Assembly (NCBI GenBank): GCA_020351995.1
Contig: CP070674.1
Coordinates: 3,100,664 to 3,141,888 of the forward strand
Origin: Candidatus Zixiibacteriota bacterium
GTDB taxonomy: Bacteria > Zixibacteria > MSB-5A5 > GN15 > FEB-12
Direction of reading: 5' to 3'
Length of the DNA: 41,225 bases
The notes under the pieces were generated by a model, which was given only the letters and a program-made list of their open reading frames with translations, was not told the DNA's origin and did not search any database. This document shows positions 488 to 13,549 of this stretch, piece after piece; position 1 is the stretch's first letter; every line of letters starts with the position of its first letter. The translations under genes and the position numbers were made by a program.

Positions 488-2047
488 TCACACCACCCTG
501 AATGTTGCCAACCGTTGTTTATCCGGCGTAACCACGTGCACAGCGCAGGCGATGCAGGGATCAAACGACCGGACGACGCGGCCAGCCTCGATCGGATTTT
601 CGATATCGGCTATCGGAGTGCCAATCAATGCCTGTTCCATAGGGCCCTTACATCCCTTATCATCGCAGGGGCTTCCATTCCATGTAGTGGGCACGACGCA
701 CTGGTAGCGGTTAATCTTCTTATCCTTGATGCTGATCCAGTGTCCCAGAGCGCCCCTGGGTGCCTCGGTCAGACCGATGCCTTCTCCCTGCTGGGGTATG
801 CTGAACGGAGTGTGAGCCGGTTTGCCGGGCTGAAGTTGAGTGACCCACTGGGCGCAGCGGTCGGCGACGACCTTGGCCTCAAGTGCCCTTGCGGCATGAC
901 GGCCCAGAACGGAGAAAAGGGCTCCCACCGGGGCATTGAATCGGGCCAGGGTATCAGTGACCATTTTCGAGACCGTTTCGCTGGCTCCCGTTAGATGCGC
1001 CACACCTATTCGGGACAGTGGTCCGACCTCGACCACTTCGCCATCGTAACGCGGCGCCTTAAGCCATGAATAGGCTCCTTCTTTGTACAGGTCCGGCGTG
1101 GTCTCGCCCTTTGAAGGATGATTACCTGATGCCGACGAGTAGCGTGAATACTTCACGTACTCTGAGAGTTTCTTCTCCGAGAAGGCGCGAACTTCGCCGT
1201 TGACAAAGGTTCCCGCTGGCAGAAGTTTGGCGTCGCCGTTATTGTCTTCTTCGAAGACACCGTACGAAAGCAGATTTCCGCAGCCCTTGCCGATTTCGAA
1301 GTATTTCGGGTAGAGACTTGCCACCGCGAGTACATCGGGTATGTAGACGTTCTCGACGAAGTCCGAAATCTCTCTCAGCCGTGAGGAAAAGGCGGCGATC
1401 TTATTTACCGTAACTGTCTCAGATGATCCCCCGGGCATGATGGTGACATTATGAGGCATGCGGCCACCAAAAATCGACAGCATTTCCTGGGCCTTGCGAC
1501 GTATCTCAAGGGCTTTCAGATAATGCGTGATAGCGGCGATATTGATATCCGTGTCAGCGATATAATCGCCCTCGTACCGGGGAAGGAAAGGGGCCACCGG
1601 GTTGGCTTTGCCGCTGTCAAGTTCAGCCTGTGCCCAGGCCTTCACGCGGTTCAATTCCGGATCATTACCTTTGTATTTAAGGATGGCGGTGATATCGACA
1701 TAATCGAGCGCCGCCAGATGATAGAAGTGGAGCACATGTGACTGAAGGTAGTTTGAGCCCAGCACAAGATTGCGGATGAGCCGTCCGTTATCAGGCGGCG
1801 TGACGCCAAGGGCCCTGTCGAGCGTGAGGCTCGATGCCTGGGCGTGACTCGCCGGACAGACTCCGCAGATGCGCTGGGTAATCTGATTAGCGTCAACCGG
1901 ATTTCGTCCGTGAAGTATCTGCTCGATACCACGGAACATTTCACCACAACAGCGGGCATCGCTAACCTTTCCGTCTTCAACCTCTATCTCTATCTTGAGA
2001 TGACCCTCAATTCTTGTCATCGGGTCGATTGTAATCGTTTTACTCAT
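488..2047 (-). CDS. NiFe hydrogenase large subunit (uptake type), unprocessed precursor
   Basis: 519 residues, normal for membrane-associated or periplasmic uptake hydrogenases. The N-terminal nickel motif RICGVCPASH (C61, C64) and the C-terminal DPCIACAVH (C498, C501) supply the four Cys ligands of the Ni-Fe site. A 15-residue tail follows His504 and should be removed by the protease encoded just downstream. The protein should fold in the cytoplasm and be exported as a complex with the Tat-signal-bearing small subunit encoded 26 bp upstream. No cytochrome b or other membrane electron acceptor gene is seen within the window; it may lie beyond the left edge. Assignment to group 1 rests on motif style and the Tat partner, not on a phylogeny. 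Confidence 0.97.
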   Translation of the reverse strand: MSKTITIDPMTRIEGHLKIEIEVEDGKVSDARCCGEMFRGIEQILHGRNPVDANQITQRICGVCPASHAQASSLTLDRALGVTPPDNGRLIRNLVLGSNYLQSHVLHFYHLAALDYVDITAILKYKGNDPELNRVKAWAQAELDSGKANPVAPFLPRYEGDYIADTDINIAAITHYLKALEIRRKAQEMLSIFGGRMPHNVTIMPGGSSETVTVNKIAAFSSRLREISDFVENVYIPDVLAVASLYPKYFEIGKGCGNLLSYGVFEEDNNGDAKLLPAGTFVNGEVRAFSEKKLSEYVKYSRYSSASGNHPSKGETTPDLYKEGAYSWLKAPRYDGEVVEVGPLSRIGVAHLTGASETVSKMVTDTLARFNAPVGALFSVLGRHAARALEAKVVADRCAQWVTQLQPGKPAHTPFSIPQQGEGIGLTEAPRGALGHWISIKDKKINRYQCVVPTTWNGSPCDDKGCKGPMEQALIGTPIADIENPIEAGRVVRSFDPCIACAVHVVTPDKQRLATFRVV

Positions 2048-2073
2048 CTTATTCTCCTTTCAGACCCGCTGCG

Positions 2074-3066
2074 CTAGCCCGTGGTAACTTTACGGGGCGC
2101 GTGAGGACCCGACCAGTCAATGCCGTATGTTTTCTCTATTGGTAGTTTGGAATAAAGGCCGGTGTTTGAGAAATCCGGAAATCCCGGTTCGGTACAGCCG
2201 ATACACGGCGAACCGCTCCTGATACACCAGTTCACATTATTGTTCCAACCGCGAATGCAGGCGTCACAGTGGGCTTCCGGTCCTTTGCAGCCCAGATCGT
2301 AGAGACATCCCGGCTGACCGAAATCTTCGGCCACCCGACCTTCCTCGAAGTCGGCCCGTCGTTCGCACTGTTCATGAACGACTTTTCCGAAGAACATTTT
2401 GGGACGCTTATGTTCATCAAGTTCCGGTAAGCCGTATAGAATTACGTGCGCAATAGTACCCACGACCCAATCCGGGTGCGAAGGACAACCGGGAATGTTT
2501 ATAATGGTGGCCTTGGGGATTATGTCCTGCACGCCTCTGGCGCCGGTGAGATTGCCCTTGGCTGCCGGTATTCCGCCGAAGGAGGCGCAGGTACCGATAG
2601 CCACGACGGCTTTAGCGGCTTCGCCCAAGCGCTGCACCCATTGCTGGGCAGTCACCGGGTGGTGATTGCTTTCGCCACTCTGGCAGTAGGCACCACCTTC
2701 GCTGGTGGAAATCGAACCCTCTACGACCAGGACAAACTCGCCCTGTTGTTCGGTGAGCGCTCGTTCAAGTACCTCCACAGCGACGTCACCCGTGCCCCCC
2801 ATTACATTCGGGTGAAACTGCAGGCTGATGGTTTCGGTAAGCACCTCGGCTATATCCGGATGAACCGTGTTCAGGGTAGATACGGAACATCCGGCGCACG
2901 ATTGACCCTGTATCCAGATCACCGGCAACTGGCTGGTTTGGAGTTCCTCGGCGAGGGCTTGTTTGACGGGTTCGGGGATCCCGGCAGAATGCAGAATGCA
3001 GGGAATCACCGCCACTGAAGCAGTGCAACCCATCAGTTCGAGGAATTCTCTTCGGCTTAGACTCAT
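2074..3066 (-). CDS. NiFe hydrogenase small subunit with Tat signal
   Basis: Start chosen at ATG 3066 (GGGAG about 7 bases upstream) rather than TTG 3108; this gives MSLSRREFLELMG followed by a hydrophobic stretch, a classic twin-arginine signal. 330 residues. Fe-S ligands are visible in order: CAGCS near the mature N-terminus, GTCASFGG and GCPSHPDW (proximal cluster); a His/Cys-containing stretch HEQC with CLYDLGC (distal); and CDAC...WCIRSGSPCIGC (medial type). It passes electrons from the Ni-Fe site outward. First gene of the hydrogenase operon, then large subunit and protease. A TATACT box lies on the minus strand at 3130-3125, but no convincing -35 is seen, so the promoter is uncertain. 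Confidence 0.96.
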   Translation of the reverse strand: MSLSRREFLELMGCTASVAVIPCILHSAGIPEPVKQALAEELQTSQLPVIWIQGQSCAGCSVSTLNTVHPDIAEVLTETISLQFHPNVMGGTGDVAVEVLERALTEQQGEFVLVVEGSISTSEGGAYCQSGESNHHPVTAQQWVQRLGEAAKAVVAIGTCASFGGIPAAKGNLTGARGVQDIIPKATIINIPGCPSHPDWVVGTIAHVILYGLPELDEHKRPKMFFGKVVHEQCERRADFEEGRVAEDFGQPGCLYDLGCKGPEAHCDACIRGWNNNVNWCIRSGSPCIGCTEPGFPDFSNTGLYSKLPIEKTYGIDWSGPHAPRKVTTG

Positions 3067-3409
3067 AGCGATACTCCCATGCGCACTTACGGCGCTTTGT
3101 TTATTCAAGTTGTGTTATTGAAAGAGTATAAGCTTTTTGGGTCCTTTCATTCCCGGTCGCGCTCGGGTTGGACTGAAGCGGCGCAGTGTCCGCGACCGAA
3201 TCTTGCCCAGGTAGCCTTGATCTCAGGGGCAATTGGGAATCAGGTCAGCCAAAAATGCTACTTTTCTCAAGAGCACAATCGATATATCTATCTTTGCTGG
3301 ATTATCGGTTGATTCAATGAAAACCTTTACCGGCAGGCAGGTTAGCCCCCAAGGAGAGCCGTTCTCGTCTCTTTAGACAAACAGGCTGATAACGGGAAGT
3401 GATTGACTA
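3067..3409. other. Intergenic region upstream of the hydrogenase operon
   Basis: No gene is supported here. It must hold the minus-strand promoter of the hydrogenase operon and the 3' end of the upstream minus-strand operon. Only a TATACT hexamer (3130-3125, minus) stands out, and no strong terminator hairpin is visible. Without a clear terminator, read-through from the radical SAM operon into the hydrogenase genes is possible. Confidence 0.4.
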
Positions 3410-4357
3410 TCATTGCGATGGCAACGATTCGACAGAGGCGTAGGCCCCGGAGATCTTTTCTTCTGCCCGCAGATGGTTCAAAACGAGCTGCCCGCAGTTG
3501 CTGCCCAGTCGGTTCTCATCGACTTCACCGATGCTGAGGATTACTTCAAAACCGGCCTGCCTGAGCCTTTCGACTAACCCGGCTGCCTGAGAAGGTTGTA
3601 GCGGATCAATAAACGAGTGGTATTCGTTGAGAGCGACGCTGTAGGTTGGGTTCAGCGGTGTAATCTTGATAATGAACCTTGCCGGGTCAAAGTACTGTGT
3701 CAGAACTTCGGGGTCAATCGCAGCGTTTTTTTCCAGCGCAAAATTGAGGGCGATTTTCTTACCGCCGTTTTGATAGAATCGTTCACCATATCGAGCGATT
3801 TCGGCATATGTCCATTTGGGTACGGGCATTATGCGATCCCGGAGCACTTCATCGGTGGTGTGTATGGAAAACTGCAATTGGAAACGGTCGGTGTACAGCC
3901 GCGTCTTTATATCAAGCAATCTTTCGAAGAACGCATCCGTTTTGCGCGGCGCGATAGTCGGCAGGCACGGCAACAGGCCGGGAGCGTCGTACCGAACAGG
4001 CAGTTCTTCGAGAACATCCAGAACACTTTCATTCAAACTGGGATCACCCATGCGGGCAAACTGAATCTTGAACTTTTCAACCTCGATTCTTCGACAAGGG
4101 TATCTTCTGTCGACCAGATAGTCAATCTGAGAGAGAATCTCTTCTTTGCTCAGTTTTCCCCTGTAGAAATATCCCGCGTCACAGATAGTGCATTTGACCG
4201 GACAACCGAACAGTGTCGACACAATAAGCACCCATTTCTTCTCCCTCGGAAGCGGCGGCTGGAGTGCTTCTACGAACTCCAGGGCGTTGCCGTCCGGTGT
4301 CTCGGCTATATAAACAAGCGCCAGATCCTCGCGTCCGCTCTGTCCGATCACTTTCAT
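3410..4357 (-). CDS. RlmN/Cfr-family radical SAM protein, short variant lacking the resolving Cys
   Basis: 315 residues, against about 350-380 for RlmN. The radical SAM motif is C52-x3-C56-x2-C59. RlmN-like landmarks follow: RMGDPSLN (RlmN GMGEPxxN), SIHTTDEVLRDRIMP, ITPLNPT, and LGSNCGQL with C288 at the place of the methyl-carrying cysteine (E. coli C355). The position seven residues before the first cluster Cys is Ile45; in E. coli RlmN this is C118, which resolves the protein-RNA crosslink. The N-terminal extension of RlmN is also missing. Seen: the motifs and the loss. Inferred: not a normal 23S/tRNA A-methyltransferase. Its start overlaps the flavoprotein gene stop by 4 bp, so the two are translationally coupled. 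Confidence 0.85.
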   Translation of the reverse strand: MKVIGQSGREDLALVYIAETPDGNALEFVEALQPPLPREKKWVLIVSTLFGCPVKCTICDAGYFYRGKLSKEEILSQIDYLVDRRYPCRRIEVEKFKIQFARMGDPSLNESVLDVLEELPVRYDAPGLLPCLPTIAPRKTDAFFERLLDIKTRLYTDRFQLQFSIHTTDEVLRDRIMPVPKWTYAEIARYGERFYQNGGKKIALNFALEKNAAIDPEVLTQYFDPARFIIKITPLNPTYSVALNEYHSFIDPLQPSQAAGLVERLRQAGFEVILSIGEVDENRLGSNCGQLVLNHLRAEEKISGAYASVESLPSQ

Positions 4358-5241
4358 TTTGTCTCTCTCAATCTCCGGGCTATGTTCATGGCGGCCATGA
4401 TCCCTTCACCAACGGCGATGCCGGTCTGACGGAAATCACCGTTTTTGACATCGCCCACGAGGAACAATCTACCGGAGTCTTCCAGGGTCCCAATGTCTTT
4501 CGCGGTACGTTCGGTTAAGAAGTCAAGTTGCGCTCTGCGGCCGATGGCTATCAAAATATAATCCGCGGTAAAACTGAAGTCGTCGCACGGGCCTTTACAC
4601 TTTACAATCACCTTAGCGCCTTTTTCCTCGCAGGGTGGGACAACATTCACGTTTTCATAGTAACTGATAGATTCAGAAGCCGATGCCTTTTCCCACAGAT
4701 GTGGGGCGCAGCGAACCTCGTTTTTGCGGTTGAGAATAATTACATCGTTCTTCTGTGAAAGGGTCAGAGCATAATCGAAAGCCGCGTCACCGGCCCCGAT
4801 TATGACTACTTTCTTTCCCTCTACGTCACGAATAGGATAAACCTCATGATGGACACGCTCATTACCTGACTCACTCGACACTATATTCTCGATTGTGTCA
4901 GGCTCTGTTCCCGAAGCAACAACGACGTACGAAGCGCTGATTGTACCATCAGGTGTTTCGACGCCGAACGTACCACTGGCGTGATCCAATCGTTTTACCT
5001 TAGAATGCACAACTCGTATGTTCCTCTGCTCGAGTTGTTGACGGAAGTTTTCAGCCAAAGCCAGACCATCAATACCTTGAGGAAAACCGGGGTAATTATC
5101 CACCCGGTTAGCATTTACCAGAAGGCCACCGAGTCTTTCCTTCTCGTAAATGACCGGGTCGTATCCCTGTCTCTGAAGTTCCAACGCTGCGGCTATTCCG
5201 GCCGGTCCGCCGCCTACAATTACAATCTGTTCATCTGCCAT
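4354..5241 (-). CDS. Thioredoxin-reductase-like FAD/NAD(P) oxidoreductase without the CxxC
   Basis: 295 residues. FAD motif IVGGGPAG near residue 8, family motif VDNYPGF, second dinucleotide motif IIGAGDAA near 147, and the closing RLFLVGDVKNGDFRQ-type FAD motif. Where thioredoxin reductases carry CATC just before the NAD(P) motif, this protein has VHHEVYPIRD (about 130-139), so no redox-active disulfide. It may use the flavin directly on another acceptor, as ferredoxin-NADP reductases of the same fold do. The TrxR NADPH-phosphate HRR motif is replaced by NRKNEVR, so cofactor preference is open. It overlaps the hydrolase gene upstream by 11 bp and the radical SAM gene downstream by 4 bp; electron supply to the radical SAM partner is a reasonable guess. 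Confidence 0.88.
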   Translation of the reverse strand: MADEQIVIVGGGPAGIAAALELQRQGYDPVIYEKERLGGLLVNANRVDNYPGFPQGIDGLALAENFRQQLEQRNIRVVHSKVKRLDHASGTFGVETPDGTISASYVVVASGTEPDTIENIVSSESGNERVHHEVYPIRDVEGKKVVIIGAGDAAFDYALTLSQKNDVIILNRKNEVRCAPHLWEKASASESISYYENVNVVPPCEEKGAKVIVKCKGPCDDFSFTADYILIAIGRRAQLDFLTERTAKDIGTLEDSGRLFLVGDVKNGDFRQTGIAVGEGIMAAMNIARRLRETK

Positions 5242-5905
5242 CGTTTTTCTTCAATGCTCTCAGGAGTTCATTTATCAACACCAATTCAGCGAATCCGTGA
5301 GAAAGATTCAGTAGCGACGCTTTGTGAAATTCCTCGTTATATGTCGCCGTGCCGTCAACCGGAAAGAACACTTCAAATCCCCTCATGAATGCCGAGCGAG
5401 CCGTCGTTTCACAGCACAGATGTGCCATTACACCGCAAACTACAACCTGCGTGACATTATTCTCTCTGAGTTGCGCTTCGACGGCAGTATTGTGGAAGGC
5501 ATCGTACTGGGATTTCTCTACCACGACATCCCCAGCCGCCTTAAAGCGATCGTCAATCTCGCTGAGCGGATTATCTTTTGTAATAAGTTCCTGCCACCAC
5601 CTGTCCATCATCCCCGCGTTACTGCCATCGTTGAGATGTCGAGTTAATATGACCGGTAGGCTTCTCCCCCGATAGGCATCCATAAGGTCGATCAGGCCCG
5701 GGACGATGACCGGAGCGCTGGGAATGTAGGCGTGGGACTTTTCTTCGAGAAAATATCGTTGCATGTCCAATACCATCAGGGCGGATTTGACCGGCAGGTA
5801 CTCGCAGCGGCGATCGGGCTCCCTCGCGGTCAAGCGTCTGAATTCCTGTGACTTAGCCGCTATGTTATGGGTATTTAGGTACTCTTCCTTCATCAACCTG
5901 CTCAT
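5231..5905 (-). CDS. Isochorismatase-family cysteine hydrolase
   Basis: 224 residues from ATG 5905 (TTG 5917 and ATG 5893 are alternatives). The catalytic triad of the family is visible: D47 in MVLDMQ, K131 in VVEKSQYDAF, and C164 in CGVMAHLCCETTARSAF. The family includes nicotinamidase, isochorismatase, N-carbamoylsarcosine amidase and biuret hydrolase; substrate cannot be assigned. About 40 residues precede the core fold. First gene of a three-gene overlapping operon with a TrxR-like flavoprotein and an RlmN-like radical SAM protein, an unusual set for a plain salvage amidase. A promoter reads TTGCCA (5953-5948), 17 bp, TATATA (5930-5925), leaving a leader of about 13 bases or none. Confidence 0.9.
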   Translation of the reverse strand: MSRLMKEEYLNTHNIAAKSQEFRRLTAREPDRRCEYLPVKSALMVLDMQRYFLEEKSHAYIPSAPVIVPGLIDLMDAYRGRSLPVILTRHLNDGSNAGMMDRWWQELITKDNPLSEIDDRFKAAGDVVVEKSQYDAFHNTAVEAQLRENNVTQVVVCGVMAHLCCETTARSAFMRGFEVFFPVDGTATYNEEFHKASLLNLSHGFAELVLINELLRALKKNDGR

Positions 5906-5924
5906 AATGCTTGGCAAAGACGGA

Positions 5925-6899: not shown

Positions 6900-8309
6900 T
6901 TATTGCGAAATCAAATACTCATGCATCGACCGGGCGGCCTTGCGCCCTGCCCCCATAGCCAGAATCACCGTGGCTGCCCCGGTGACAACGTCACCGCCGG
7001 CCCAGATCTTGGCCCGCGAGGTCTTACCGGTCTCTTCATCGGCAACGATATTACCTTTCTTGCCGATCTCAAGGCCGGGCGTGGTGGACGCGATAAGAGG
7101 ATTGGGGCTGTTGCCAATAGCGCAGACAACGGCGTCAACCGGGAAGATTTCCTCCGAACCCTCGATCGGCACCGGGCGGCGCCGTCCGGACGAATCCGGC
7201 TCGCCCAGTTGCATCTTCTGAATCTCGATCTCCTTCACCCAGCCGTTCTCGTCACCGATGTAGCGTAATGGCAGCGTGAGGAAATTGAAGATGACGCCCT
7301 CCTCTTCAGCGTTCTCGATTTCTTCTAATCGCGCCGGAAGCTCTTCTCTCGAACGCCGGTAGATAATCCGCGACTCGGCCCCCAGCCTGAGGGCGCTCCG
7401 GGCGCAATCCATAGCCACGTTACCACCTCCCACCACAGCGACTCGCTTATGGCTCTTGACCGGTGTGTGGTACTCGGGAAAGAGAAATCCTTTCATCAGG
7501 TTCAGGCGAGTCAGGTACTCGTTAGCCGAGTAGACACCGTTGAGGTTCTCGCCGGGGATTTCCATGAACCACGGCAGACCCGCGCCGGATCCGACGAAGA
7601 CGGCATCGAATTCCTCAAGGATAGAATCGACGGTTCTGGTCTTACCAACGACGAAATCCGTAACAATCTCAACTCCCAGTTTATTGAGGTAGTCAACCTC
7701 GCGGTCGACAATGCTCTTGGGCAGCCTGAATTCCGGGATACCGTATACCAGCACCCCGCCCATTTTATGCAGGGCCTCGAAGATTGTCACCTCGTGACCG
7801 AGCTGGATAAGGTCGCCGGCTACGGTCAGTCCCGCCGGACCGCCGCCCACGATGGCCACTTTCTTCCTGGTCTTCTCAGGGATGTGGGGCATTTCGATTT
7901 TCCCCTGGGCGGCTTCCCAATCCGCCAGGAACCGTTCCAGGCGCCCAATGGCAATCTGCCCGCTTTTCTTGACCAGCACACAGGTTTCTTCGCACTGTTC
8001 TTCCTGTGGACAGACCCGACCGCAGATAGCCGGGAGACAGTTCTTCTCCTTGAGAATCTGGATGCCGCTTTTGAAATCCCGTTCAGCTATAGCCTTGATG
8101 AAGCCCGGGATGTTGATTTCGACGGGGCAGTTATCAACACATTTCGGCTTGGGACATTGAATGCACCGGTTGGCTTCCGCCACGGCCAGTTCCGCCGTAT
8201 AGCCCAGGGCGACTTCGTTGAAATTGTGGGAACGGATCTCCGGCGGCTGCTTGGGCATATCCCGTCTATTTAAATCCAGTGGTTTCTTTTTCTTTTTCGG
8301 ATCAGCCAT
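6900..8309 (-). CDS. nfnB: NfnB/GltD-like FAD- and NADP-binding iron-sulfur oxidoreductase
   Basis: Start set at ATG 8309 (GGAAGG upstream, 8-bp overlap with nfnA); upstream codons are only the other frame of nfnA. 469 residues. N-terminal dihydroprymidine-dehydrogenase/GltD cluster domain: C-x2-C-x4-C-x3-CP (CIQCPKPKCVDNCP) and CLPAICGRVCPQEEQC near residues 45-110; FAD motif VAIVGGGPAGL; MGGVLVYGIPEFRLP; NAD(P) motif VAVVGGGNVAMDCAR; closing GGDVVTGAATVILAMGAG. The same fold serves as glutamate synthase small subunit, SudA and NfnB; the neighbouring NfnA makes NfnB the best call. In NfnAB this subunit bifurcates electrons from NADPH to ferredoxin and NAD+. Last gene of the nine-gene operon. 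Whether bifurcation is kept cannot be told from motifs alone. Confidence 0.9.
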   Translation of the reverse strand: MADPKKKKKPLDLNRRDMPKQPPEIRSHNFNEVALGYTAELAVAEANRCIQCPKPKCVDNCPVEINIPGFIKAIAERDFKSGIQILKEKNCLPAICGRVCPQEEQCEETCVLVKKSGQIAIGRLERFLADWEAAQGKIEMPHIPEKTRKKVAIVGGGPAGLTVAGDLIQLGHEVTIFEALHKMGGVLVYGIPEFRLPKSIVDREVDYLNKLGVEIVTDFVVGKTRTVDSILEEFDAVFVGSGAGLPWFMEIPGENLNGVYSANEYLTRLNLMKGFLFPEYHTPVKSHKRVAVVGGGNVAMDCARSALRLGAESRIIYRRSREELPARLEEIENAEEEGVIFNFLTLPLRYIGDENGWVKEIEIQKMQLGEPDSSGRRRPVPIEGSEEIFPVDAVVCAIGNSPNPLIASTTPGLEIGKKGNIVADEETGKTSRAKIWAGGDVVTGAATVILAMGAGRKAARSMHEYLISQ

Positions 8310-9165
8310 GACAACCTTCCCTGTGCTGATGAGGATGCTCTTCACTCTTGCTCGTCCTGAGAGGCACCACTTCTTCGGGCATATAGGTTTTACGCCGCTG
8401 AAGCAGTTCTTCCCAGTTGACCTGATGACCGTCAAAATCGGGGCCGTGTACACAGGCGAATCGAGTCTCGCCCCCGACCGACACGCGACACACGCCGCAC
8501 ATGCCGGTGCCATCGATCATAATCGGATTCAGGCTTACCCAGGTTGGAATTTCCATCGGCCGGGTGGCGTCCGAAACTCGCTTGAGACAGTAGGTACAAC
8601 CGTTGACGATAACCCGGTCCACCGGCGTATCCAGGCTTTTGATGATTTCCGGGAGCCGGTCCACGTGGCCCTTGTACCCCTTGGTGCCGTCGCGGGTGAT
8701 CTGAACAAACTTATCCGCTATCGCCTTGTAACGGTCTTCCCAGTAAAACAGGTATGAGCTTCGGCCTTCGATCAGGACAACGATTTTGTTACCGGCTTCT
8801 TTCAGCGCCCGGGCAATCGGAAAGATACTTCCGATTCCATAGCATCCGCCGACCAGAAGCACGGTACCGTACTTTTCGATGTCGGTAGCGTTGCCTAACG
8901 GACCCACCACCGTCGGTATCTCCTGACCTTCCACCAGCGAGGCCAGCCGGTCAGTGGTGCGCCCGACATTCATATACACGATCGTGATTGTTCCCATCTG
9001 TTCGTCCCAGTCCGAGATCGACAGAGGTATTCGCTCGCCTTCTTCTTCCGCCCGGATAATAACGAACTGACCCGGTTTCGCTTCGCGGGCTACCGCGGGA
9101 GCTTCCAGCGTCAAGAGGTGCATGTTCGGAACAATCATCCGGCTTGTAACAACTTTAAACATCAC
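8302..9165 (-). CDS. nfnA: NfnA/SudB-like NAD(H) ferredoxin reductase subunit
   Basis: 287 residues, ferredoxin-NADP reductase (PyrK-like) fold. FAD site RIPLSISDW, nucleotide site VLLVGGCYGIGSIFP, CTYCLK, and the [2Fe-2S] loop DGTGMCGVCRVSVGG...FACVHGPDFDGHQVNW typical of NfnA/SudB. A His-rich tail (EEHPHQHREGCHG) is unusual. The GTG start at 9165 (or ATG 9162) overlaps the stop of the NuoG-like gene, and the 3' end overlaps nfnB by 8 bp, so the subunits are made together. In T. maritima-type Nfn it holds FAD and a 2Fe-2S cluster and exchanges electrons with NAD(H). Confidence 0.92.
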   Translation of the reverse strand: MMFKVVTSRMIVPNMHLLTLEAPAVAREAKPGQFVIIRAEEEGERIPLSISDWDEQMGTITIVYMNVGRTTDRLASLVEGQEIPTVVGPLGNATDIEKYGTVLLVGGCYGIGSIFPIARALKEAGNKIVVLIEGRSSYLFYWEDRYKAIADKFVQITRDGTKGYKGHVDRLPEIIKSLDTPVDRVIVNGCTYCLKRVSDATRPMEIPTWVSLNPIMIDGTGMCGVCRVSVGGETRFACVHGPDFDGHQVNWEELLQRRKTYMPEEVVPLRTSKSEEHPHQHREGCHG

Positions 9166-11663
9166 TTCTTCCTCATTTTCACTGGATGCGGGTTAGGGTT
9201 TACGGCCTCAGCCTCAGTCTTGGTCAGCTGAAGCGTGCCGGGGGGTTGTTCTAACCTGATTCGGACAGGCACGGTTTTCTTGAATCCGTTGGAGCTTATC
9301 ACAACTTCGTCACCGTCAGTCAGTTTTGCCTTCCGGGCGTCTTCAGGATTAACGGCGACCCTTCCCTCGCAGAACAGGGACCTGGTGCCGTCAACCCAGG
9401 ACGAAAGTGGGAAGCCCCGGTGGGTGTGTTCGGAGATAGAAGTACTCAGGACGAAAGGATGACCCTTCCCGGTCTTCACCCCAGGTGCCCGTTTGGGCTT
9501 AATGACCTTCATCTCTGTCTTTACGTTCAGTGACCGGGCCTCGCGTTTCGGCTTGCTGAAACTGCCGAAGTCCTCGACCAGCCCGGCTATTTCCTTGTGG
9601 ATGTCAGCCGCTTTTTTATAAGCGAAGCCATCGATACCCAGTTTTTGTGCTATTTTCGACAGAATCATCCAGTCCGGCATCGCTTTCCCGGGAGGCTCCA
9701 CGGCCTTCCGGATCCGCTGTAATCTGCCTTCGCCGTTAATGAACGTGCCATCAGCCTCGGTAAAGGCCGCTGCCGGCAACATCAAATCCGTCTCGAAGAG
9801 TGAATCCGTCGGATAAATATTCTGGGATATGATATAGTCGGCCGGTTTGTCCGCGTTGCTCAAAAGCGATTCACCAATCAAATAAAGAACTTTCAGTTTT
9901 TTACCGGCGGTCGGGTTCGCGGCGTTCCATTTGGAATGGAAGCTCGGGATACTGCTCTTCCAGGCTCTCTTGAGCTGGGCCAGGCGCGCCGGGTTCGTCG
10001 ATGATTGGCCCCCCGGCAGAAGTTCCGGGTAGCTGCCCATGATGAGCGAGCCGTAGAGATTATTCTGAGCCGGGAGCGGCATCACTCCCGCTCTAATATT
10101 CTTCGCCAGTTGGTCCACTGCCGCCAGTATATCGGGACTGGCATCGTACTGAAGGAACTCTGAGCCCAAAAGGATCACAGTTGATTTGGACTCTGACAGT
10201 ATTCGGGCCACCGCCGCGACATCATCATCTTTCTTGGTGCCGGCGGCAGTCGTCTTCTCGCCTGTCGATTTTACCAGTGACTTCAAGAAGTCGATTTCAG
10301 TTCCCGGAACGGGCTGGACCCACCGCTCCGATATCATGGCCAGGCTATGCTGACGCGGATTGACACTGACAATCTTCGCCCCTTTCCGAAACGCCCGGCG
10401 CAACTCCACCCCGACCACCGACCGCCCAAAGCGAATATCCAGTCCGATGCAGAGCACCGCCGACGCCTTACGTATTTCGGACAGCGGTACACTTCGCTTC
10501 ATCAGGTTGAGATACTCGTTAAATCCGGGACCGTAGAATGCTCTCGCCGATGTATCGACATTGTGCGAGCGCATAACCGTCCGGGTGAACTTCTGCGCTA
10601 CATAAAGGTCTTCGTTCGTGCAATTGGGAGAAACCAGCATCGCGAACTCATCCGGCTTGCATGCGGCCAGTTTCTCGGCCGCCGCGTCAATAGCCTGCTC
10701 CCATGTGATTTCAGCAGGGGTTCCCGCATAGGTCCGGAAGGGATGTTTGGCCCGCTTTGGTCCGCTGACCAACTCGGTGATACAGAAGCGCCCTTTAACA
10801 CAAAGCTGCCCATTGTTTACCTTGTCATCCTGCTCCGGCAGACTGCCGATTATGCGGTCACCTTTTACCAGAAGCCGCATCTGGCAGCCAACCCCGCAGA
10901 ACGTGCACGTGGTTATCTCTTCACGGTCAGGCTTGCCTTCGTAGGCGCGAGCCTTTTCCGTCAGCGAACCGGTGGGACACACCGACACACAGGCGCCGCA
11001 AAATTCGCAGCCGGCTTCAAGATGGGTCCGTTCATAGGCCGGGCCGATAACCGTTTCGCGTCCACGATGGTTAAAGGCCAGGACATGCGCGACCCGGACC
11101 TCCTGACACATCCGTACGCACCGTCCACAGAGGACACACAGATTGTAGTCCCTGTCGTAGAACGGGTCTTCCTTTTCGACCCGAAGATTTCGGTAATAGA
11201 TGGGATACTTGATATCCTTGATCTCCATCTTCTCGACCACGTCCTGAAGTTCACACTGGCCATCATTGGAGCAATACCGGCATCCCGTGGTCACGCCCGC
11301 CTTGCGGATGGTGCCCATATATTCCCGGCATTGGTCTTTTTCCTCGCAGATAAGACAGCTTGAAGTGTGTTCACTCAAGAACAACTGCAGAATCTCTGTC
11401 CGCATCGACTGAACCTGCGCCGTGTTCGTCCTTATCACCATGCCATCGGCTATCGGCGTGGTGCAGGCCGTGGGAAGGTTTCGCATTCCTTCGACCTCGA
11501 CAATACACATGCGGCAGCCGCCATAGGGAGTAAGTTCCTCGTGGGCGCAGAGAGTCGGTATGTAAATGCCGTTTTGTTCGGCTGCCTCGAGGATGGATAT
11601 TCCTCCGGGTACCGTGTACGGCTTATTGTCTATCGTTACCGTTACGGTTGCATCTTTCTTCAT
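9162..11663 (-). CDS. NuoG-like Fe-S subunit with inactive molybdopterin-oxidoreductase fold
   Basis: 833 residues. 1-90: [2Fe-2S] ferredoxin (C39, C50, C53, C67). 99-140: H99-C103-C106-C112 plus a second CRYCSNDGQCELQ segment, an extended version of the NuoG His/Cys cluster region. 175-235: two [4Fe-4S] motifs (CVLCGRCVRMC, CEFCGACVSVCP). From 250: MopB domain with CTFCGVGC and C288. At the position where formate dehydrogenases carry the molybdenum-binding Cys/Sec followed by His (ARxC/U-H), this protein reads ARAFYGP (F376, Y377), so it should not bind an active Mo/W site. C-terminal MopB cap present. Likely an electron-wiring subunit, as in NuoG, StnC or SfrA. Overlaps both neighbours by 4 bp. 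Confidence 0.9.
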   Translation of the reverse strand: MKKDATVTVTIDNKPYTVPGGISILEAAEQNGIYIPTLCAHEELTPYGGCRMCIVEVEGMRNLPTACTTPIADGMVIRTNTAQVQSMRTEILQLFLSEHTSSCLICEEKDQCREYMGTIRKAGVTTGCRYCSNDGQCELQDVVEKMEIKDIKYPIYYRNLRVEKEDPFYDRDYNLCVLCGRCVRMCQEVRVAHVLAFNHRGRETVIGPAYERTHLEAGCEFCGACVSVCPTGSLTEKARAYEGKPDREEITTCTFCGVGCQMRLLVKGDRIIGSLPEQDDKVNNGQLCVKGRFCITELVSGPKRAKHPFRTYAGTPAEITWEQAIDAAAEKLAACKPDEFAMLVSPNCTNEDLYVAQKFTRTVMRSHNVDTSARAFYGPGFNEYLNLMKRSVPLSEIRKASAVLCIGLDIRFGRSVVGVELRRAFRKGAKIVSVNPRQHSLAMISERWVQPVPGTEIDFLKSLVKSTGEKTTAAGTKKDDDVAAVARILSESKSTVILLGSEFLQYDASPDILAAVDQLAKNIRAGVMPLPAQNNLYGSLIMGSYPELLPGGQSSTNPARLAQLKRAWKSSIPSFHSKWNAANPTAGKKLKVLYLIGESLLSNADKPADYIISQNIYPTDSLFETDLMLPAAAFTEADGTFINGEGRLQRIRKAVEPPGKAMPDWMILSKIAQKLGIDGFAYKKAADIHKEIAGLVEDFGSFSKPKREARSLNVKTEMKVIKPKRAPGVKTGKGHPFVLSTSISEHTHRGFPLSSWVDGTRSLFCEGRVAVNPEDARKAKLTDGDEVVISSNGFKKTVPVRIRLEQPPGTLQLTKTEAEAVNPNPHPVKMRKK

Positions 11664-13549
11664 GACACTCTCCGGTTGGACTTTATCTCGATGGCGTTAC
11701 CGGCTAAAGGATCGTAGCGACAGATTTCATAACAGGCCTTGCATTTGATGCACCGCAATTGGTCGATAGAGTGCAGCTCCGACCTGGCACCGGTGATGGC
11801 CTGGGTCGGACAGATATCGACGCACTTCTGACAACCGTTGCACTTGTCCGCGTCGATTACATATTCCACCAGCTCGCGGCAAACAGCAGCGCCGCAGAAT
11901 TTGTCCTGCACGTGGGCCAGGTATTCGTTGCGGAAATGACGCAGGGTGGTCAGGACGGGATTGGGAGCCGCTTGCCCCAGACCACAGAGCGAAGCCCGGG
12001 CCACAGTCTCAGCCAGCGTCTGCAGCTTTGCCAGGTCATCGGCCTCACTTTGCCCCCTGGCGATTCTATCAAGAATCGTAACCATGTGCCATGTCCCTAC
12101 GCGGCAGGGAGAGCACTTGCCACAGGATTCTTTCTGGGTAAAATTCAAGAAATACAGAGCCAGGTCCACCACGCAGCTGTCTTCGTCCATCACAATCATA
12201 CCACCGGACCCCATTATGGAACCTGCCGACTGCATCGACTCGTACTCGACCGGGATGTCGAGATATTCATCAGATAAAAATCCGCCCGATGGTCCCCCGG
12301 TCTGTACACCCTTAAACGCTTTCCAGGAGCCGCCACCAATATCGTAAATGATTTCCCTGAGTCTGGTGCCAAGCGGAACTTCAATAAGACCTCCGCGGCG
12401 GATCGAACCGACCAGGGAGAAGGTCTTGGTGCCGTAGTTCCCTTTGACACCATACTGCTTGTACCACTGGGCGCCGTTGCGGAGAATATTGGGCAGCGTT
12501 CCCAGCGTCTCTACGTTGTTGATGATGGTTGGTTTTCCGAACAGACCCTCGACGGCCGGGAATGGTGGACGCGAACGCGGCATGCCGCGGCGTCCCTCGA
12601 CCGACCCGATGAGCGCCGTTTCCTCTCCACAAACAAAAGCGCCGGCGCCCTCTTTAATGGTCAATTCGAAATCAAACTTGGAGCCAAGGATGTTTTTACC
12701 CAGAAGGCCATACTCTCGCATTTGTTCCGCCGCCCGGCGTAAACGGGCTATGGCCAGGTGGTAATCCGAGTTTATGTAAATATAACCGTGCGAGGCGCCG
12801 ATGGCGTAGGAGGCTATCATCAAGCCTTCCAGCACACAATGGGGATCGCCTTCAATAAGGGCCCGATTCATAAAAGCGCCCGGGTCTCCTTCGGACACGT
12901 TACATATCATGTACTTTTGATCTCCCGGCACGCTTCGACATATCGTCCACTTCCTGGCGGCCGGGAACCCTGCCCCACCTCGTCCACGCAATCCGGCTTC
13001 ACCGACTTCTTCGATAACCTCCTCGGGCGTCTTACACAAAGCGCTATTCAATCCGGCATAGCCGTCTTTGGCCAGATAGTGATCTATATTTTCCGGGTCG
13101 ATAAAACCGCAGTTCCTCAGCACCAGCCTGACCTGCGGCTTGAGCATGGGGATTTCGAAAAACCTCGGGATGCCCTCCGTTACCGGGTAACCGTTCTGGC
13201 CGAAGTGGCCCGCGGCCATTTCCGGGAGGGGATTCCCTTTGATGAGGTAATTCTCAATAATGTTCCGCGCCCTTTCAGGATTCAAATTGGCGTAGCAGAT
13301 CCGTGGATTGCCCGGCACCTGGATATCCATCAACGGTTCCATGTAGCAGGGGCCAATACATCCAACTTTCACCAGCCTGGCCTTCAGCTTGTGTTCCTTG
13401 AGGATCTCCTGTACGGCCTCGAATACTTTCGTGGCGCCGGCCGACTGACCACAGGTAGCCATACCAAAGTAGATGACGGGAATCTCCGAGTTCTGGAGCT
13501 CCTCCCATTCCTGGCGTGCCCGCTGTTGTCTCGCTTTGAAACTAATCAT
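11660..13549 (-). CDS. NuoF/HydB-like FMN, NAD(H) and Fe-S subunit
   Basis: 629 residues, HydB-type architecture. 1-110: thioredoxin-like [2Fe-2S] domain (C33, C64, C68). About 185-300: FMN/NAD site (GLRGRGGAGFPAARKW, CNVSEGDPGAFMNR). About 330-450: GAGAFVCGEETALIGSVEG and SLBB region. Then ESCGKCSPCRVGT for [4Fe-4S], and a C-terminal two-cluster ferredoxin (CNGCQKCVDICP, CIKCKACYEIC). In HydABC and Stn enzymes the HydBC pair is the bifurcating core that oxidises NADH with FMN. Overlaps the NuoE-like gene by 8 bp and the NuoG-like gene by 4 bp. No HydA with a complete H-cluster is nearby, so the partner electron acceptor is not H+. Confidence 0.94.
   Translation of the reverse strand: MISFKARQQRARQEWEELQNSEIPVIYFGMATCGQSAGATKVFEAVQEILKEHKLKARLVKVGCIGPCYMEPLMDIQVPGNPRICYANLNPERARNIIENYLIKGNPLPEMAAGHFGQNGYPVTEGIPRFFEIPMLKPQVRLVLRNCGFIDPENIDHYLAKDGYAGLNSALCKTPEEVIEEVGEAGLRGRGGAGFPAARKWTICRSVPGDQKYMICNVSEGDPGAFMNRALIEGDPHCVLEGLMIASYAIGASHGYIYINSDYHLAIARLRRAAEQMREYGLLGKNILGSKFDFELTIKEGAGAFVCGEETALIGSVEGRRGMPRSRPPFPAVEGLFGKPTIINNVETLGTLPNILRNGAQWYKQYGVKGNYGTKTFSLVGSIRRGGLIEVPLGTRLREIIYDIGGGSWKAFKGVQTGGPSGGFLSDEYLDIPVEYESMQSAGSIMGSGGMIVMDEDSCVVDLALYFLNFTQKESCGKCSPCRVGTWHMVTILDRIARGQSEADDLAKLQTLAETVARASLCGLGQAAPNPVLTTLRHFRNEYLAHVQDKFCGAAVCRELVEYVIDADKCNGCQKCVDICPTQAITGARSELHSIDQLRCIKCKACYEICRYDPLAGNAIEIKSNRRVS

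Follow-up and report, generated by a model that had tools for sequence, protein, structure and literature searches.

Three overlapping genes on the minus strand

ORF calling in the window, i.e., the whole stretch of 41,225 nt that was analysed, revealed three overlapping ORFs on the minus strand, in the gene order ISOC-FLAV-RSAM. The first (ISOC; 5231..5917) encodes an isochorismatase-like cysteine hydrolase, the second (FLAV; 4354..5241) a thioredoxin-reductase-like FAD/NAD(P)H flavoprotein of 295 aa without a CxxC motif, and the third (RSAM; 3410..4357) a one-cysteine RlmN-fold radical SAM enzyme of 315 aa. A preliminary description of this locus had proposed a three-gene operon with 11- and 4-bp overlaps, and the ORF coordinates confirm both the ISOC/FLAV overlap (11 bp; 5231..5241) and the FLAV/RSAM overlap (4 bp, ATGA; 4354..4357). 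Overlaps or very short gaps between ISOC and FLAV recur in other phyla, and the same 4-bp overlap joins FLAV and RSAM in many homologous loci. Since homologues in the alignment begin there, the ISOC start is probably the ATG at 5893 rather than the listed TTG at 5917 or the ATG at 5905 used in the preliminary description.

Inspection by eye placed [NiFe]-hydrogenase subunits downstream of the trio (window positions 488-3108) and glutamate-synthase/NuoF/NuoG-like redox genes upstream of it (6900-13549). An LRR gene on the opposite strand separates ISOC from the GltA-type gene in the window, and in a relative from the same genus (G027) a GltA-type gene directly precedes ISOC. No Rfam RNA was found near the trio, promoter and terminator scans of its surroundings gave results close to chance, and no PADLOC match relevant to a defence role was obtained.

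Family searches placed FLAV closest to thioredoxin-disulfide reductase (142 bits, cut-off 343). Like TrxR, it has two domains for nucleotide binding and, close to the C terminus, the GDxxxxxxRQ region, and the conserved G10/G12/G15 and G149/G151 indicate that both the FAD and the NAD(P)H Rossmann GxGxxG regions are kept. However, the redox-active CxxC is absent where a solved TrxR has it in the alignment, and no such cysteine columns occur in the FLAV family. ISOC scored well above the threshold of Pfam Isochorismatase PF00857 (141 bits, cut-off 27) and shares its sequence family and Asp-Lys-Cys triad with isochorismatase-like hydrolases (EntB 2fq1, cysteine hydrolase 3irv, RutB). The triad residues D51, K135, and C168 (TTG numbering) are invariant or nearly so, with the catalytic C168 (5414..5416; motif CCETTAR) being invariant in the alignment. 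The CCET motif is common to ISOC and 3irv, whereas EntB carries a Gly at the site of the catalytic Cys.

Conservation of the trio across bacteria and archaea

The same gene order, often with overlaps, was encountered from Zixibacteria to Thermotogota and the archaeal Thermoplasmata. FLAV adjoins RSAM in 94, and ISOC adjoins FLAV in 72, of the 102 fetched loci (which include some contigs twice), and several of the exceptions are contig ends. Since the same genes stand in the same order in dozens of genomes from many phyla, this arrangement is far above chance. A single query protein, scanned against 84,980 species genomes, yielded 42 loci, distributed over Cloacimonadota, WOR-3, Latescibacterota, Ignavibacteria, Aminicenantes, Krumholzibacteriota, Eisenbacteria, Chloroflexi, Planctomycetes-type, Thermotogota, Thermoplasmata, and others. 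With the RSAM profile, 45/103 Thermotogota and 41/243 Thermoplasmatota genomes were positive. Within the Zixibacteria-like host phylum the RSAM family was found in 25 of 132 genomes (i.e., 27 matches minus one distant phage-type relative and one true RlmN). Confinement to this genome, which the preliminary description had named as counting against its proposal, can thus be dismissed.

ISOC, FLAV, and RSAM also co-diverge, with pairwise tree distances of the three proteins correlating at r 0.65, 0.73, and 0.77 over 64 loci, compared to a permutation maximum of 0.26. Moreover, all three are present even when unlinked, as in a Syntrophaceae genome (G132) in which RSAM and the ISOC-FLAV pair reside on different contigs. 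One further locus (G208), beyond the 72 with ISOC beside FLAV, has an inverted ISOC adjoining RSAM, and in several Zixibacteria only FLAV and RSAM are paired and a sister-type ISOC lies elsewhere in the genome. A few RSAM genomes, most of them incomplete, are without an ISOC match; like the Zixibacteria with only a FLAV-RSAM pair, these speak against a three-gene module. In the host phylum, ISOC-type genes occur in 22/25 RSAM genomes vs. 32/107 RSAM-free genomes (Fisher p 1e-7, uncorrected for kinship). Conserved order, co-divergence, and joint presence make it very probable that the products work together, as had been proposed from the overlaps. The trio is a self-contained three-enzyme module that is inherited as a unit. 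A fourth conserved neighbour, also considered in the preliminary description, did not emerge: the neighbourhoods of the fetched loci contain no fixed partner, i.e., no fourth gene recurring across lineages and no recurrent transporter, regulator, or export gene.

A number of individual loci deserve mention. In Thermotoga-type genomes L229 and L230, a TnpB-like ORF (IS605-type by eye, clear in L230) sits between the retained FLAV and RSAM. The same-genus genome G026 has only an ISOC fragment beside FLAV (L082 5913-6188), and carries an intact ISOC elsewhere, beside a GltA-type gene (L169 1375-2106). Apparent ISOC-FLAV fusions in L259 and L266 were rejected, since the long ORFs run through the ISOC region in a different frame. 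An ISOC sister family exists in many RSAM-free genomes of the host phylum and adjoins a small cupin-like gene in L170, L172, and L180; beyond this neighbour in three loci, the sister hydrolases of RSAM-free genomes showed no shared pathway. A link of the trio with oxygen was likewise discarded: COX1 is only weakly rarer in RSAM genomes (10/25 vs. 67/107, p 0.045, uncorrected for kinship), and the window genome itself has COX1.

A one-cysteine variant of the RlmN fold

The best family matches of RSAM are RlmN and Cfr, albeit at scores far below the cut-offs (30 bits vs. a cut-off of 290 for the RlmN family TIGR00048, with other RlmN/Cfr NCBIfam models also far below theirs). Its AF2 model (pLDDT 88) has RlmN 5hr6 as best PDB match (Z 25, 2.8 A over 265 residues). 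With class A RlmN/Cfr enzymes, RSAM shares the fold, the CxxxCxxC motif, and the carrier cysteine in a CGQ motif, but it differs from them by an Arg before MG[E/D]P and by the loss of two elements. Firstly, since residue 1 of the model aligns with RlmN residue 80 in the structure alignment, the N-terminal RNA-binding helical domain is absent; the beta extension is kept as in RlmN. Secondly, an equivalent of RlmN C118 is missing. In 58 homologues, C52, C56, and C59 of the [4Fe-4S] motif (4181..4204) and C288 (3494..3496; motif GSNCGQ) are the only invariant cysteines, and in the alignment C288 is the counterpart of C355, the methyl carrier of RlmN. The position of C118 is held by I45 (4223..4225), with Ile in all trio rows of a 33-protein alignment and no Cys column among the 58 homologues.

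Neither cysteine is dispensable in RlmN or Cfr; C118 is believed to serve as a base, and RlmN chemistry without it stalls, with the enzyme staying covalently linked to the RNA (PMC9692996). Judged by its sequence, the C118-less RSAM breaks this two-cysteine rule of the RlmN/Cfr family, which is the most unusual point and was absent from the preliminary description. That description had taken all three proteins to be altered relatives of known enzymes, which is borne out here. Its further claim that RSAM is no ordinary m2A2503 methylase holds as well, given that the host genome carries a separate true RlmN (L002) and that RSAM has neither the N-terminal RNA-binding domain nor a C118 equivalent.

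A midpoint-rooted tree of the 33 proteins splits the fold in two (support 96/91), with RlmN and phage RlmN-like proteins with C118 on one side, and the trio RSAM and two phage types without C118 on the other. In every C118-less sequence examined, the residue two positions ahead of the conserved G in the MG[E/D] motif (or in the corresponding motif) is an Arg. RSAM is a member of an RlmN-fold clade that lacks C118. In principle, its RlmN/Cfr best matches could also be explained by RSAM being an ordinary drifted RlmN paralogue among unrelated passenger genes. This is very improbable, as it is contradicted by the conservation of the trio across bacteria and archaea, and as RSAM has strictly invariant motifs and a clade of its own.

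The C118-less phage RlmN-like enzymes (phrog_24834; crAss-like and Moorella phage type) share with RSAM the clade, the C118 loss, and the Arg before MG[E/D], but have no FLAV or ISOC annotated beside them, and in the crAss-like type the enzyme is divided over two genes. In a widespread C118-less phage family, the ~260-aa core ends short of the last helix, and a separate ORF of ~40-50 aa, usually immediately downstream of the core, encodes the carrier-cysteine segment (...GYDYAVAIATxxEIxxGAACGQL...). Such an ORF was found near 31 of 46 viral contigs from IMG/VR (L102-L147), and is exemplified by Kehishuvirus tikkala (L077 3130-3261) and Moorella phage MTATph1 (L071 5805-5927). In Yersinia phage P778 (L075) and Pectobacterium phage Wc4 (L078), which are of the same phage type, the ORF just downstream contains no CGQ piece, and the carrier segment may be located elsewhere or lost. 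Stenotrophomonas phage ANB28 has a C118-bearing RlmN-like gene among tRNA genes (L072 4884-5843), with an N terminus shorter than that of RlmN. Searching IMG/VR with the trio profile confirmed no relative.

Tentatively, RSAM and its phage relatives might constitute a new radical SAM class, in which the carrier cysteine is kept, the resolving cysteine is gone, and the Cys-bound carbon is not used for plain methylation. The trio would then represent a cellular pathway built on this chemistry (likely on purines), and the phage protein of ~40 residues could be an exchangeable or consumed carrier.

Possible substrates of the module

The kept RlmN fold, carrier cysteine, and beta extension of RSAM might indicate RNA modification, in which RSAM would modify a tRNA or rRNA adenosine like RlmN does, FLAV would be the reductant, and ISOC would make or remove a side group. 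The location of MiaA just ahead of an ISOC-FLAV pair in one genome and the existence of phage relatives of the fold, one C118-bearing copy of which lies among tRNA genes, are in line with this. We nevertheless consider it unlikely, in view of the missing RNA-binding domain, the absence of C118 throughout the RSAM family, the RlmN already present in the host, and the lack of an obvious place for a hydrolase of small amides. The neighbouring genes lean towards nucleobase or cofactor metabolism over RNA modification.

Our preferred reading, to which we assign a probability of roughly 40%, is that the trio is a small-molecule pathway combining RSAM radical chemistry with FLAV as redox partner and ISOC as hydrolase, its substrate being most likely of the purine type. 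A purine-type substrate is the preferred guess because characterised RlmN/Cfr members of the fold act on adenine, at C2/C8 (PMC9692996). Genes for purine metabolism neighbour the trio in three lineages. In Thermotogota (L238), family matches named an 8-oxoguanine deaminase, encoded divergently to the trio, and, on its downstream side, YgeY, a carbamoyltransferase, and a hydantoinase; the gene order in L242 and L244 is the same as judged by sequence. In Aminicenantes (L055), RdgB overlaps ISOC, and Apt (adenine phosphoribosyltransferase) follows RSAM. In Syntrophaceae (L148), adenine deaminase comes after FLAV and MiaA before ISOC. The Thermotogota trios of L238, L242, and L244 thereby lie among genes of the kinds found in the reductive uric acid degradation cluster, i.e., YgeY, carbamoyltransferase, hydantoinase, and PreA/UacX-like genes (the latter by eye). 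However, genes of the types that mark this pathway (SsnA, HyuA, YgeW, YgeY, YgeX) were seen only beside some Thermotogota trios, most trios being located elsewhere, and the paper on this cluster makes no mention of a radical SAM enzyme or an isochorismatase (PMC12507026). Since the neighbours of most trios are unrelated, the purine link could be due to chance; those of the window trio are hydrogenase-type redox genes, not purine genes.

What follows is our inferred scheme for the type of substrate, the electron flow, and the step order of this purine-type pathway. SAM would methylate C288 of RSAM, or C288 would serve as hydrogen donor. A second SAM would give rise to a 5'-deoxyadenosyl radical, upon which carbon or hydrogen from C288 would be transferred to an sp2 carbon in the ring of a small molecule, for which a base or nucleotide of the purine type is most likely. 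As dedicated redox partner, FLAV would pass NAD(P)H electrons to the [4Fe-4S] cluster, to C288, or to the ring. Reduction of the RSAM cluster by FLAV, suggested in the preliminary description along with an action of ISOC on substrate or product, is a plausible prediction; NAD(P)H may be too weak an electron donor for a [4Fe-4S] cluster. Finally, the Asp-Lys-Cys triad of ISOC would hydrolyse an amide or ureido-like bond that the pathway creates or exposes. Precedents for such partners are RutB, which is isochorismatase-like and acts in pyrimidine breakdown, and the Pyr_redox_2 flavoenzyme YgfK, which acts in reductive urate breakdown (PMC12507026). The main gap of this scheme is RSAM turnover and product release without C118, which is problematic because known RlmN chemistry lacking this residue halts as a covalent adduct (PMC9692996).

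The pairing of a flavoprotein gene with a radical SAM gene recalls LipT, the proposed reductase of LipS1/S2. With LipT as precedent (PMC10332631), FLAV could be a LipT-like reductase in a module that makes, repairs, or recycles lipoyl groups. In support of this, LipS2 overlaps or abuts ISOC in Thermosipho-type genomes, the trio of Thermoplasmata L252 and L259 has LipS2 and an LplA-like ligase on its upstream side, and a LipA gene overlaps FLAV in Zixibacterium L087. LipS2 is also commoner in Thermoplasmatota genomes with RSAM (20/41 vs. 27/202, p 2e-6, uncorrected for kinship), but not in those of Thermotogota (38/45 vs. 43/58, p 0.23, uncorrected for kinship). Adjacency to LipS2 or LipA is limited to three or so lineages, LipA is near universal in the host phylum where the trio is patchy, and the short stretches fetched around other LipS2 genes contain no FLAV-type gene, so that a lipoate function seems quite improbable.

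A specialised metabolite or cofactor pathway apart from purines, yielding for example a thioether-containing or C-methylated product, would agree with the self-contained nature and patchy distribution of the module and with its varied neighbours (e.g., an MttB-type methyltransferase, an aldolase, and a ketol-acid reductoisomerase). On the other hand, such a pathway would comprise only three enzymes with no recurring transporter, regulator, or export gene, and the fact that small genomes of thermophiles and archaea carry the module suggests a primary role, which makes this explanation possible but doubtful.

No description of the ISOC-FLAV-RSAM trio was found in the literature searched, in line with its not having been recognised as a described system in the preliminary description. 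A selenium review was set aside, as it mentions only in passing an isochorismatase-like gene linked to an uncharacterised SelD trait. The preservation of the trio from Thermotogota to archaea, together with the violation of the two-cysteine rule, points to an undescribed radical reaction, and the trio probably carries out an undescribed metabolic step, perhaps of purines. In the debate on what C118 does in RlmN, RSAM moreover provides a clean natural point of comparison. The trio is directly testable, given that genera carrying it (Thermosipho, Fervidobacterium) include cultured members. In Fervidobacterium, NrdG and NrdD flank the trio (L053 688-5055; L228), which provides a competing lead towards a link with anaerobic ribonucleotide reductase.
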